IMG/VR virus record: IMGVR_UViG_3300044623_000276
Span: 1 to 38,183 of that record
Source: a virus
Length of the DNA stretch: 38,183 nt
Direction: 5' to 3' (one strand)
Shown here: piece by piece, positions 18,611 through 21,971 of the stretch
Layout: each line of letters starts with the position of its first letter
How positions within the stretch are numbered: the first letter of the stretch is position 1
Translations under genes and position numbers: made by a program
The notes under the pieces: generated by a model
Databases searched by the model: none
What the model was told of the DNA's origin: nothing
What the model saw: only the letters and a program-made list of their open reading frames with translations

Positions 18611-19201
18611 TAGCGCACTCGCATACGCTCGCTTGCTCGCAGCGATGACCAGCACCCTTTGTCGACATGCCTCTTTTTTTGCCGTTTTTTTCTCAGCCAA
18701 AACGTTCCCGCCCACCACCCAAAGTGAACACAAAACCACACACACAGACACACCCTTATACGTATCTATGGGCCCCCGCGCCTCGGCAGACCCCCGATCA
18801 CCCGCCCCCCGTGTGCGTCGCGTCGCGTTCGCAACCCGCACCAATAGCGCGCCCATAAAGCCCATTATGTAAAGTTAGGGAGCACCTACCCCCCACTAGT
18901 GGCAAGTTCGGCACGTCATCGGGGCATCGTCGGCAGTTGCGACACGTTCGCGGGCGTTAGTTCGTAAGTTCGGGGCAACTGCGCCTAGTTGTGTGGTTGG
19001 GTTGTGTTGGTTGTGCCCGGGGTTTGGTGGCCGTTGGGGTTGTGCCCGGGGTTTGGTTTTCGGGGGGGGGTTGTGTCGGGTTGGGTGGTTTGCGGGGCTT
19101 ATATCGCTTTAGGGCGGGGCTGTTTTGGGGGAGTGCTGCTAAATAGGTTGTTTTGGGCTTGTGTGTGTTGGGTTTGGGTTTTTCGATTTTGCGGGGGTGG
19201 T
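18611..19201. other. Gene-free switch region with strong G+T skew
   Basis: This 590-bp stretch separates the minus-strand late operon from the plus-strand block. I see no believable gene: the frames that stay open give low-complexity or Arg/Pro-only peptides. It holds two runs of seven T's (18674-18680, 18685-18691), a CA-rich stretch, a C-rich stretch near 18770-18820, the palindrome CCACTAGTGG (18893-18902) and an 8-bp inverted repeat (GCAGTTGC 18933-18940 with GCAACTGC 18975-18982). From about 18985 to 19215 the plus strand is almost devoid of A and rich in G and T, including a run of nine or more G's. A replication origin or transcription-switch region is possible. Confidence 0.5.
19009..19057 (+). 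repeat. 20-bp direct repeat in G+T-rich tract
   Basis: The 20-mer ggttgtgcccggggtttggt occurs at 19009-19028 and again at 19038-19057, a 29-bp offset, inside the strongly G+T-skewed gene-free segment. Repeated G-runs (GGGG, GGTTGGG, then at least nine G's) could form quadruplex structures on the plus strand. Iterated sites next to a strand switch are typical of origins or regulator-binding arrays; no binding protein is known here. Confidence 0.7.
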
Positions 19202-19230
19202 TTCGGTTGGGGTGGTGGTTGTGTTACTAT
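19202..19230 (+). promoter_or_regulatory. Possible promoter of the plus-strand block
   Basis: TTCGGT (19202-19207), a 17-bp spacer and TACTAT (19225-19230). The -10 equals that of the strong promoter at 21661, but the -35 is poor. Twelve bases downstream is the inverted repeat GCCAC-TAG-GTGGC (19242-19254), an operator-like site overlapping the presumed transcript start. It lies 50 bp before the first plus-strand gene. Confidence 0.5.
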
Positions 19231-19279
19231 TTAGACATGTCGCCACTAGGTGGCATGCGCCGTCGGGAGTCGGCTAACC

Positions 19280-19570
19280 ATGATGATAAATAATGATGAG
19301 AGTTCAGGGCGTGAAGTTCGCGCCGTGTTAAATAGTTTGCGGGTCAATAGCGATCAGTTTGATCGGTTGTCTAGTTTTGCGCGGGGCTATTTGGCACACG
19401 CGGAGAACGACGAGAATTTTTCGGATCAGTCGTATTGTTTCGATGGTTACGAGATTGCGTTCACTGTGTCTGAGAATGGTTGGGTTTCCGTGTCGGCTTA
19501 TCCGTCTAGTTATGAGATGGGCACCGATTGGGCTAACGGTTTCAAGTTGTTTAGTGTGCGGGGGGCGTGA
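19280..19570 (+). CDS. Early-block hypothetical protein
   Basis: A 96-residue acidic, soluble protein of unknown function, rich in Ser, Asn and aromatic residues (FDGYEIAFTVSENGWVSVSAYPSS suggests beta strands). The ATG at 19280 is chosen over an upstream GTG at 19250 because GGGAG ends 10 bases before it. That GGGAG lies in the loop of a GCCG/CGGC stem (19260-19275), the loosest member of the Shine-Dalgarno hairpin family seen before three other genes. It is first in a run of four overlapping genes. Confidence 0.75.
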   Translation: MMINNDESSGREVRAVLNSLRVNSDQFDRLSSFARGYLAHAENDENFSDQSYCFDGYEIAFTVSENGWVSVSAYPSSYEMGTDWANGFKLFSVRGA

Positions 19571-20202: not shown

Positions 20203-20266
20203 GCCTAGCCCGTTAGGGGTAGCCCGTCATAGGGCAACTAGGCACTAGCGGGGCAATTCCGCCCCG
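20203..20266 (+). ncRNA. Three-way-junction-like intergenic element A
   Basis: Outer stem GCCTAG (20203-20208) pairs with CTAGGC (20238-20243) and encloses two hairpins, CCC-GTTA-GGG (20209-20218) and GCCC-GTCATA-GGGC (20222-20235). It is followed by a third hairpin CGGGGC-AATTCC-GCCCCG (20249-20266). There is no T-run, so simple intrinsic termination is unlikely. It lies between the stop of one gene and the Shine-Dalgarno hairpin of the next. Confidence 0.55.
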
Positions 20267-20273
20267 TGAATAA

Positions 20274-20289
20274 ATAGATGGGAGTCTAT
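20274..20289 (+). promoter_or_regulatory. Shine-Dalgarno hairpin, copy 1
   Basis: ATAGA-TGGGAG-TCTAT is a perfect 5-bp stem with the ribosome-binding GGGAG displayed in a six-base loop. The initiating ATG is taken as 20294, nine bases past GGGAG; the ATG at 20288 overlaps the stem. The same 16 bases recur before the gene at 20970, and a differently paired version precedes the gene at 21711. Confidence 0.7.
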
Positions 20290-20293
20290 GACT

Positions 20294-20857
20294 ATGAGTA
20301 AGTATAAATGGGCGTTAGATTACGCCGACAAGTTAGACGAGTTAGACGCGACACGGGAGACACTTAGCGCGGAGTTATCGGCGCGGGCTAGTGGCGATCT
20401 ATTCGCGCGTTGGGGTGCGGGAGTTGCGGGGCGGGGCGTGTTGCGCAACTCCGACAAGTTGTCTATTGAGTTGTGCTACCCGACGGCGGAGTTTTCTAGC
20501 CACTCATCGGGCGCATATTGTCGGGGTATCCATTATGTCATCGTTCATCGCAACGGGGCGACGCATCGGGCGACGTTGCGAGTCAATGGCGACGTGCGGG
20601 CGGTTGGTGGCGAGTTGTCTTATTTCGTCGATGATGACGGGGCGGAGCGGGTGCCGTCGTGTTTCATTACGGATACGACACTCCCCGACGGTGCCCGCAA
20701 GATCATTAACGACGTTGCCGCCGATGAGTGGCGCAAGTTGGCGGTTAGCCCCGTTGAGTTGTGGCGGGAGTGTTTAACGTCGGCGATCCGTCGCGAGTTG
20801 TTCGCGGATAGTGCGCCCCGTGCGCGCGGGTTGGTGCGGGAGTTCGGGGGGTACTGA
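20294..20857 (+). CDS. Early-block hypothetical protein (187 aa)
   Basis: A protein of unknown function. An N-terminal helix (YADKLDELDATRETLSAELSAR) precedes a beta-rich middle (LSIELCYPTAEFSS, IHYVIVHRNGATHRATLRVNG) and a C-terminal helical part ending in basic residues. No signal or membrane segment. Start at 20294 (MSKYKWALDY) rather than 20288 by spacing from the hairpin Shine-Dalgarno. It is flanked on both sides by structured intergenic elements, so it is probably controlled individually at RNA level. Confidence 0.75.
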   Translation: MSKYKWALDYADKLDELDATRETLSAELSARASGDLFARWGAGVAGRGVLRNSDKLSIELCYPTAEFSSHSSGAYCRGIHYVIVHRNGATHRATLRVNGDVRAVGGELSYFVDDDGAERVPSCFITDTTLPDGARKIINDVAADEWRKLAVSPVELWRECLTSAIRRELFADSAPRARGLVREFGGY

Positions 20858-20868
20858 TCGACACGGTA

Positions 20869-20916
20869 GCCCTAGCCCCGCAACGGCGGGCGACACGTTC
20901 ACGACGTGTCTAGGGC
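20869..20916 (+). ncRNA. Three-way-junction-like intergenic element B
   Basis: Outer stem GCCCTA (20869-20874) pairs with TAGGGC (20911-20916) and encloses two perfect hairpins, CCCGC-AACG-GCGGG (20877-20890) and GACACGT-TCACG-ACGTGTC (20892-20910). The architecture matches element A at 20203, although the inner stems differ completely in sequence. It lies 12 bp after one stop codon and 35 bp before the next Shine-Dalgarno hairpin. Confidence 0.6.
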
Positions 20917-20950
20917 GCAAGGCTTAAACGCCGATTAACAACACAACTAA

Positions 20951-20966
20951 ATAGATGGGAGTCTAT
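20951..20966 (+). promoter_or_regulatory. Shine-Dalgarno hairpin, copy 2
   Basis: ATAGA-TGGGAG-TCTAT, identical over all 16 bases to the hairpin at 20274, again with GGGAG in the loop. The first ATG (20955) lies inside the stem-loop and would place the Shine-Dalgarno downstream of the start. The usable ATG is at 20970, eight bases past GGGAG. Confidence 0.7.
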
Positions 20967-20969
20967 GAG

Positions 20970-21590
20970 ATGATAGATAAAGACACGGCGACATCGACGA
21001 CGACGGCGACACTAGGCGACTTAGTGCGCATCGTTGGGGCGATGTCTCAACACGTAAGCACCGACGCGGCGCGGCAAGGGTTATGCGCCATCGTCATCGG
21101 GGCGGGGCAGATAACGGCGACGGATAGCTACACGGCGGCGATCTTTACGCCGACGGCGACGATCACGGCGGGCGATACCGTAATGATTAACGGGCGGGAG
21201 CTACTGACGGCGATAACTAATGCGCATAAAGCATTAAAGCGCGACGGCACCCCGACGATAGAACTAGTTAGCGACGGGCGACGTTGGGTTATGACGGCGA
21301 CGGGTGCTACGGCGACAACGACGGCGGGCGGCGATGTCATCGACGCGCACTATCCGAACGTTAACGCGGTATTTAACCAACCCGCCGACGAGTTTCACGG
21401 GTGGCTACCTACGGGCGTGAACGGCGACTATCTCGCACGGATCACGACGGCGCACGGCAAGCTAATCGGCAAGGCCGACATGCCGCTAGTGATAAAGAAT
21501 TGGCAAGGCAACGTTAAGCCGATCCAATTTGAGACAACTACCGAACTAGGCACACTCCGGCAATTACTTATGCCGGTGCGCCTAAAATAA
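20970..21590 (+). CDS. Sliding-clamp-like protein (short DnaN/beta-clamp relative)
   Basis: A 206-residue protein with beta-clamp hallmarks: AIVIGAGQITATDSYTAAIF matches the 'ATDSYRLA' strand of bacterial clamps, followed by VMINGRELLTAITNAHKAL, a mid-protein HYPNVNAVF ('FPDY'-like position) and the C-terminus LRQLLMPVRLK, which matches the conserved clamp ending with MPVRL. Bacterial beta clamps are about 370 aa with three domains. This one has room for about two, so it would need a trimer to form a ring. It should tether a polymerase to DNA. No polymerase is in the window. Start at 20970 by ribosome-site spacing. Confidence 0.72.
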   Translation: MIDKDTATSTTTATLGDLVRIVGAMSQHVSTDAARQGLCAIVIGAGQITATDSYTAAIFTPTATITAGDTVMINGRELLTAITNAHKALKRDGTPTIELVSDGRRWVMTATGATATTTAGGDVIDAHYPNVNAVFNQPADEFHGWLPTGVNGDYLARITTAHGKLIGKADMPLVIKNWQGNVKPIQFETTTELGTLRQLLMPVRLK

Positions 21591-21601
21591 CCCCCCATCG
21601 G

Positions 21602-21637
21602 TAGCCCGTCGTCGTCGATACCGGCGGCGGCGGGCTA
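21602..21637 (+). terminator. 16-bp hairpin between clamp-like gene and next promoter
   Basis: TAGCCCGTCGTCGTCG pairs over 16 bp with CGGCGGCGGCGGGCTA (three G-T pairs at regular three-base intervals), closing a four-base loop ATAC. It ends one base before the TTGACA box of the following promoter. There is no T-run, so it may terminate weakly, insulate the new promoter or act as an RNA-stability element. Like elements A and B, it begins in a GGTAGCCC context. Confidence 0.65.
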
Positions 21638-21666
21638 TTGACATTACACGACGAACACGATACTAT
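21638..21666 (+). promoter_or_regulatory. Near-consensus sigma70-type promoter
   Basis: TTGACA (21638-21643), a 17-bp spacer, TACTAT (21661-21666). The transcript would begin about 35 bases before the ATG at 21711 and drive the chain of nine overlapping or adjacent small genes to 23580. This is the strongest plus-strand promoter I found. The -10 hexamer matches the weaker candidate at 19225. Confidence 0.8.
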
Positions 21667-21692
21667 TAACTTACCTCTACAAGATAGAGCTA

Positions 21693-21708
21693 CTGAATGG
21701 GAGTTCAG
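21693..21708 (+). promoter_or_regulatory. Shine-Dalgarno hairpin, copy 3 (covarying stem)
   Basis: CTGAA-TGGGAG-TTCAG: the loop is identical to the hairpins at 20274 and 20951, but the stem sequence is different and still pairs perfectly over 5 bp. GGGAG ends seven bases before the ATG at 21711. Compensatory change of the stem with a constant loop supports a functional RNA structure. Confidence 0.72.
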
Positions 21709-21710
21709 AT

Positions 21711-21971
21711 ATGAATACTAAACGATTATATTGGGTGGCCGATTGCGGCCATGAATGGTTAGCGGTGCCACAATTTATGGCGCGACAAGTTAGCGGCATA
21801 TCGTCGTTCTCTTATATCTCACCGACGGGCACTACCGCGTACCTTGAGGGTGATTGCGATGCGGCGTTATTCTTCGCACACTATGAGCTAGACGGTAAAG
21901 AATTAGGTGAGACTAAACTTTACGAACGTCAGGCACCGTGCCGCAACTATCCGTCATATCAGGGGGCGTAA
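21711..21971 (+). CDS. Small phage protein of unknown function
   Basis: An 86-residue protein, first gene behind the strong promoter. It shows LYWVADCGHEWLAVPQ, ISSFSYISPTGTTAYLEGDCDAALF and LYERQAPCRNYPSY, a layout I associate with small early actinophage proteins without assigned function. Three cysteines are present but no clear metal motif. Its stop TAA overlaps the next ATG by one base. Confidence 0.75.
   Translation: MNTKRLYWVADCGHEWLAVPQFMARQVSGISSFSYISPTGTTAYLEGDCDAALFFAHYELDGKELGETKLYERQAPCRNYPSYQGA

Follow-up and report, generated by a model that had tools for sequence, protein, structure and literature searches.

A covarying hairpin with the Shine-Dalgarno sequence in its loop, within a reused RNA leader of environmental actinophages: a candidate translational gate

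What does a phage gain by placing the ribosome-binding sequence of several small genes in the loop of a short RNA hairpin? The question is raised by the viral sequence IMGVR_UViG_3300044623_000276, which was analysed from positions 1 to 38,183 (38,183 bases; hereafter, the window). A WhiB gene is encoded in the window, and the virus is therefore probably an actinophage; a WhiB scan of bacterial genomes gave matches mostly in Streptomyces relatives. An earlier note on this DNA had described the hairpins and proposed that a phage-encoded protein binds their common loop. Here, we ask whether the hairpins are real, to what larger structure they belong and how they might act.

Hairpins at the gene starts of a plus-strand block

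Small, mostly acidic genes, called as open reading frames, form a plus-strand block at 19.2-23.6 kb, which is flanked by divergent terminase and structural genes and by a minus-strand block of recombination genes and WhiB. Up to 22 kb, all four starts that have an intergenic gap carry a hairpin, designated H2, with the Shine-Dalgarno (SD) sequence in its loop (Table 1). The genes between these starts share a few bases with their neighbours, and their translation is probably coupled. The sequence agrees with the earlier description of three plus-strand genes (20294, 20970 and 21711) preceded by a 5-bp stem closing TGGGAG, the stem being ATAGA/TCTAT twice and CTGAA/TTCAG once. At the fourth gene (19280), GGGAG is looped out by a GCCG/CGGC stem as described, with a U.U mismatch below the loop in addition. 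The ATG was said to lie 7-10 nt past GGGAG, and the distances are 10, 9, 8 and 7 nt for 19280, 20294, 20970 and 21711, respectively. The observation of GGGAG-loop hairpins is real and is confirmed.

Table 1. Leader elements and the genes behind them, by position in the window
Feature	Position	Strand	Sequence or product	Basis or remark
-10-like element, leader 1	19225-19230	+	TACTAT	Sequence; relatives have TTGACA about 17 nt upstream of a -10-like hexamer
H1, leader 1	19242-19254	+	GCCAC-TAG-GTGGC	Folds; hairpin at the same place with other stems in relatives
H2, leader 1	19259-19274	+	GCCG-U-C(GGGA)G-U-CGGC; SD GGGAG 19265-19269, ATG 19280	Sequence, relatives, folds
First block gene	19280-19570	+	96 aa, function not assigned	Behind H2
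3WJ, leader 2a	20203-20243	+	P1 GCCTAG/CTAGGC, P2 CCC-gtta-GGG, P3 GCCC-gtcata-GGGC	Descriptor, fold
H1, leader 2a	20248-20267	+	GCGGGGC-aattcc-GCCCCGT	Folds; also present in L031, L033 and L035
H2, leader 2a	20274-20289	+	ATAGA-U(GGGA)G-UCUAU; SD 20280-20284, ATG 20294	Sequence, covariation
187-aa protein gene	20294-20857	+	187 aa	Behind H2; L033 and L035 have a different gene after this leader
3WJ, leader 2b	20869-20918	+	P1 GCCCTA/TAGGGC, P2 CCCGC-aacg-GCGGG, P3 GACACGTT-cac-GACGTGTC	Covariance model R1, descriptor; upstream of the clamp-like gene
H1, leader 2b	20921-20932	+	GGC-ttaaac-GCC, weak 3-bp stem	One fold, tentative
H2, leader 2b	20951-20966	+	ATAGA-U(GGGA)G-UCUAU; SD 20957-20961, ATG 20970	Sequence, covariation
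Clamp-like protein gene	20970-21590	+	206 aa, weakly like phage DNA polymerase processivity factors	Behind H2
Sigma-70-like promoter, leader 3	21638-21666	+	TTGACA-17-TACTAT	Consensus match only
H1, leader 3	21675-21689	+	CTCTA-caaga-TAGAG	Folds; relatives have CCCTA/TAGGG
H2, leader 3	21693-21708	+	CUGAA-U(GGGA)G-UUCAG; SD 21699-21703, ATG 21711	Sequence, relatives, covariation
86-aa protein gene	21711-21971	+	86 aa, GHEWL...AYLEGDCDA family	Behind H2; relatives have other genes here

GGGAG occurs at 31 sites on the two strands of the window, and a stem of at least 4 pairs in the H2 geometry is found at five of them, namely the four H2 hairpins and one minus-strand site with no reported start codon. 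Other GGGAG sites in the block, including an SD-like one before 22278, have no stem, and TGGGAG occurs in the window about as often as expected (12 copies against 11.4). When flanks are drawn at random from the local composition, a stem of at least 4 pairs arises with a probability of 0.015 and one of at least 5 pairs with 0.005. Under this random-flank model, stems at four of four starts would arise by chance at about 6e-8, but two of the four hairpins are identical copies and the effective number behind this value is therefore lower.

The processivity-factor label of the 206-aa protein comes from PHROG 947 (E=9e-8); the protein also matches PHROG 3007 (E=5e-14), whose RusA-like resolvase label conflicts with it. 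INPHARED gave no matches when searched by DNA and by the clamp protein. Two further features were noted beside the leaders: a G/T-rich tract with a repeated 29-base unit, GGTTGTGCCCGGGGTTTGG, at 19000-19220 upstream of leader 1, and a long GC-rich hairpin (TAGCCCGTCGTCGTCG...CGGCGGCGGGCTA) at 21600-21637, downstream of the clamp-like gene and upstream of the leader 3 promoter, which is kept in clade A relatives.

Covariation and the larger leader in related phages

Protein searches of viral contigs found the close relatives of clade A and the more distant clade B, and a pattern scan for the CTAG form of the stem reached group X, whose terminase is 24-33% identical to that of the window. At orthologous or positionally equivalent starts, the H2 stems of clade A include ATAGT/ACTAT (the form of leader 2a in relatives), CTAGA/TCTAG, CTAG-A..A-CTAG, GCGCTA/TGGCGC, ACGCT/AGCGT and GCCTA/TAGGC; most orthologues of leader 2b read CTAG-A-C(GGGA)G-A-CTAG. 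Clade B closes the same loop with TGATCC/GGGTCA, CAACTC/GGGTTG and CGTCTC/GGGGCG. Across orthologous starts, the loop Y-GGGA-G is kept while the stem sequence changes, which bears out the earlier proposal that all stem positions may change as long as pairing is kept. In clades A and B and in part of group X, GGGAG is accompanied by complementary flanks, so that the refuting outcome named in the earlier note, a retained GGGAG whose flanks no longer pair, did not arise there.

The homologous upstream regions also carried the covariation test that had been suggested. Over 25 distinct 18-mers, the H2 covariation score is 1.09, against 0.296 +/- 0.043 for shuffled alignments (0/500; the shuffles ignore relatedness). 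Both-sided changes occur at five of the six pairs, with 70 such cells versus 25 expected. Paired cells amount to 94%, compared with 38-49% for slid versions; since the 18-mers were selected for having a stem, this percentage is partly selected, and the distinct paired types at orthologous starts are the stronger evidence.

These data bear on the possibility that H2 is functionless, having arisen by chance or by recent duplication of a short inverted repeat. Two window copies are identical over 21 bases, so one was probably copied from the other. Against this stand the covariation over 25 distinct hairpins, the blind recovery of leaders by covariance models (below) and the pattern scans, in which 35 stretches, mostly family members, came from the CTAG form, compared with a single known relative and three chance sites from the ATAG/CTAT form. 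The H2 covariation already refutes this explanation unless the alignment is mistaken, and we give it next to no credence. A DNA operator was likewise rejected, because pairing outlasts sequence change and the centre is not palindromic.

The loop reads better as a GGGA tetraloop closed by Y-G. Loops closed by U have a paired base beneath, whereas an A.A or U.U mismatch lies beneath seven of the eight C-closed loops and none of the 17 U-closed ones (Fisher p=1.7e-5, a statistic that ignores relatedness). This coupling between the loop base and the underlying pair suggests that the apex is kept weak, which is consistent with an SD that needs to stay exposed.

H2 closes a larger leader, of which the earlier note saw this final module alone. 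In group X, H2 is preceded by a three-way junction (3WJ), in which P1 encloses P2 and P3, and then by a hairpin, H1. Two layouts were found: promoter-H1-H2 at transcript 5' ends, and 3WJ-H1-H2 internally, with H1 weak or absent in some. The 3WJ copies sit between coding segments, several per genome. The covariation score of the 3WJ is 0.69 versus 0.159 for shuffles (0/500) in an alignment fitted to the model, and 0.49 versus 0.18 in an 11-sequence alignment, A7, that predates any model; P1, P2 and P3 covary alike. Covariance model R1, trained on group X alone, recovered leader 2b of the window (35.6 bits, E=4.9e-6), a group X-only model matched clade A contig L031 (E=1e-4), and the enlarged model R2 matched an untrained clade C locus (E=1.8e-6); all these E-values are rough. 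Leader 2a matched weakly (20203-20245, 12.4 bits, E=1.9), so its junction rests on fold and place. A descriptor search placed the 3WJ architecture in leaders 2a and 2b of clade A and leaders B1 and B2 of clade B; for leaders 1 and 3, which are linked to promoters, it gave scattered weak matches only. Rfam returned no match up to E=5 for the window block or up to E=1 for eight group X loci; the 3WJ leader is strongly covarying and previously uncatalogued. R2 found no match in 149 Actinomycetota genomes, where an empty result is uninformative.

The H1 form of leader 3 relatives recurs in 17 contigs. A promoter scan reported no promoter-like site at leader 1, whose -10-like element is weak in the window itself, and the total number of TTGACA-type promoter sites is not above shuffles. 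Reading the group X P2 loop, TTGAC, as a -35 box is disfavoured: the candidate -10s are poor, and a promoter would have no need of the covariation seen in the flanking stems. A T-loop or tRNA-like reading of P3 was also dropped, as the loops fit inconsistently. ARAGORN found no tRNA or tmRNA in the window, and R2 matched a FlowerPower tRNA weakly (E=0.046).

Two cultured Planktophila phages have been described (PMC10202952) whose names match the records of phages E7 and F5. These records (OX376640 and OX376641; L110 and L111) are filed as 'Caudovirales sp. ct2KA10' and are unannotated, and their descriptions give LanE43-AprE7 and LanE43-AprF5. The 3WJ (46 and 42 bits) and H1 are present in both phages, whereas H2 is absent and the SD, ACAGGAG, is open and surrounded by A-rich sequence. 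Since E7 and F5 carry the rest of the leader with an open SD, H2 is a lineage-specific addition, inessential to the leader. Further 3WJ copies without H2 were observed in L048 (4605-4650) and L110 (1751-1794 and 2161-2208), and the genes behind them have an open SD.

Sequence comparison further indicates that leaders persist through exchange of the genes that follow them. Behind leader 3, the window has the 86-aa gene, whereas relatives have genes from other families (205 aa, 127 aa and 51 aa), and leader 2a precedes either the 187-aa gene or a different 103/104-aa gene.

Opening costs and explanations for the hairpin

Energies were calculated from nearest-neighbour parameters, with ribosomes and co-transcriptional folding left out. 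Native flanks make GGGA easier to open than shuffled flanks by about 1.5 kcal/mol at 37 C to 2.2 kcal/mol at 20 C (at 37 C, p about 5e-11 for GGGA and 5e-6 for GGGAG); the SD is, in this sense, displayed. By contrast, the 18-nt SD-to-start region has a median opening cost of 6.4 kcal/mol at 37 C, or 9.1 kcal/mol at 20 C, versus 1.6 and 2.9 kcal/mol with A-rich flanks such as those of relatives without H2. The H2 hairpins are weak (-2.5 to -10.5 kcal/mol), and the predicted minimum free energy structure of several full leaders has H2 opened. For variants of the MS2 coat-gene hairpin, translation drops steeply as the energy goes from about -8 to -10.5 kcal/mol (42 C; PMC9894550).

Considering these opening costs together with the steep MS2 response in a similar energy range, we read H2 as a near-threshold element and favour, by a modest degree, the hypothesis that it is a cis-acting translational gate on phage mRNA. 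With the SD presented in the loop of a short hairpin just 5' of the start codon, the 30S subunit would see the SD yet would have to melt the stem for start-codon placement. The stability of H2 would lie close to the point where translation responds to small changes, and an exposed SD on a locked start would constitute a poised translational gate. Each leader would serve a group of overlapping, coupled small genes, such that a few gates would set the translation of most of the block. Comparison and computation provide the anatomy, the covariation, the reuse of leaders with different genes and the predicted opening costs; from these we infer that H2 folds in vivo and restrains initiation, and that a protein, host factor, temperature or ribosome supply may modulate it. 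Stem stability is, however, only loosely conserved between leaders, which counts against the gate, as a fine-tuned one would need it to be tightly conserved.

The same energies could be taken to mean that H2 is passive insulation that merely keeps the SD single-stranded amid strong structure, with no restraint or regulation. The easier opening of GGGA and GGGAG in native flanks fits this explanation, as does the seemingly conserved apical weakness (closure by U.G where a paired base lies beneath, and by C-G where a mismatch does). However, A-rich flanks as in E7 and F5 expose the SD better (GGGAG opens at 0.64 kcal/mol, against 1.86 in native flanks) and leave the start region nearly open, so that insulation alone needs no conserved hairpin. 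We consider it unlikely.

The position of the leaders also invites a role in mRNA stability, in which 3WJ, H1 and H2 would protect internal or 5' ends, or hide the SD from a GGAG-cutting endoribonuclease. Several 3WJ copies per genome lie between coding segments, the H1 of leaders 1 and 3 is near the predicted 5' end, and RNA structure shields GGAG from T4 RegB (PMC3014915). A stability element fits the 3WJ and H1 better than H2, though, and Pfam and PHROG scans showed no RegB-like nuclease. The RegB target context GGAGRAYARAA (PMC3014915) is not found at H2, where the 3' flank is the variable stem arm, and RegB is disfavoured as a direct explanation as these consensus features fail. Such a role seems improbable.

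In an operator reading, a phage or host protein would bind the GGGAG loop and repress several genes together, as CsrA/RsmE do on a loop GGA. One loop borne on differing stems, repeated within each genome at several genes, is what an operator would look like, YGGGAG has GGA at hexaloop positions 3-5 as in CsrA/RsmE sites, and CsrA scored over the cut-off in 59 of 296 sampled Actinomycetota genomes, making host CsrA a candidate. On the other hand, the first loop base is always Y (U or C in 25 of 25 distinct loops) instead of the A of CsrA ANGGA, the H1 loops of the window lack GGA, and CsrA is absent from the window. CsrA is disfavoured as a direct explanation by the failure of the consensus A at loop position 1. 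Among the scanned block proteins, no RNA-binding family of Pfam or PHROG was found. BLASTP at E<1e-4 across the H2-bearing lineages revealed no clearly common non-structural gene other than WhiB; the genes in common are structural, late-type and WhiB, although very short or diverged proteins could escape this search. Related phages, moreover, use GGGAG as their ordinary, open SD (Streptomyces phage FlowerPower has AAGGGGAGAGA), and conservation of the loop need not in itself imply recognition by a protein. Gene content offered no candidate for a phage-encoded regulator. Of the earlier proposal, what stands is that several gene starts bear hairpins whose stems have changed in a compensatory way, whereas the phage-encoded loop-binding repressor is so far without support, with neither a CsrA-like protein in the window nor a shared regulator candidate in the BLASTP comparison. 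A loop-binding repressor of either origin is, in our judgement, a rather weak contender.

Relation to known systems and biological meaning

By analogy, the anatomy of H2 resembles that of a start-site operator hairpin, in that a conserved hairpin overlaps the ribosome-binding site, and the CsrA-bound flaA leader of C. jejuni is the nearest known anatomy. Its hairpins SL1 and SL2 lie adjacent to each other, the second over the ribosome-binding site with a GGA hexaloop over the SD, and compensatory changes occur in their stems (PMC4894983). In contrast to flaA, the phage loop begins with Y and not A, the upstream hairpin of the window lacks GGA, a 3WJ precedes the pair and the phage encodes no CsrA. 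The MS2 coat-gene hairpin likewise includes a partial SD, GGAG, and the start region, and its stability sets translation (PMC9894550); however, it contains the start codon, which in H2 lies 3' of the stem, and H2 is repeated at several genes, in tailed DNA phages. In T4, structures at the starts of e, soc, 49, I-TevI, 25 and 38 and the gp43, gp32 and RegA operators also place phage RNA structure at starts, and such structures inhibit or promote initiation, sometimes as a protein target (PMC3014915). H2 has its SD in the loop, whereas a helix hides the SD or AUG of T4 e, soc, 49 and I-TevI; the loop of the gp43 operator is UAAC, and no three-way junction is described for the T4 structures (PMC3014915). 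FlowerPower has a strong hairpin, a smaller hairpin, a GGGAG SD and ATG in succession between small genes of its right arm, but there the SD is unstructured and the 3WJ has no significant match.

Other start-site motifs were observed in the relatives. In L059 (G012), at least five plus-strand genes (starts about 6665, 7428, 7611, 8276 and 8576) have CTTAAGAC directly before the ATG, and at some starts a full palindrome, GTCTTAAGAC, lies between SD and start, which makes a second kind of motif repeated at gene starts. For a recombination gene of clades B and C, the SD AAGGAG at the start lies in a TCGCT/GGCGA hairpin (minus strand; L055/L056 18853, L058 12438, L048 10046); the window orthologue (27030, minus strand) has an open SD.

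Taken together, we identified an uncatalogued, covarying RNA leader in environmental actinophages, a group whose gene control is little known, in which the SD-in-loop hairpin is a repeated module and not an isolated operator. The 3WJ is also present in two cultured phages, whose host can be grown, and that part of the leader is therefore testable. More speculatively, the 3WJ, H1 and H2 may form a multi-copy RNA regulon, one repeated switch answering a common ligand (a protein, a metabolite or the translation state), a model that we hold only tentatively. If true, this regulon would time the whole early-gene block, with the leaders as fixed control sockets for swapped genes. The folded leaders at early gene groups suggest a shared control point for viral proteins, and the presence of the same leaders before different genes suggests that the control is conserved and the cargo swapped, a point of relevance to the acquisition and regulation of accessory genes by phages.
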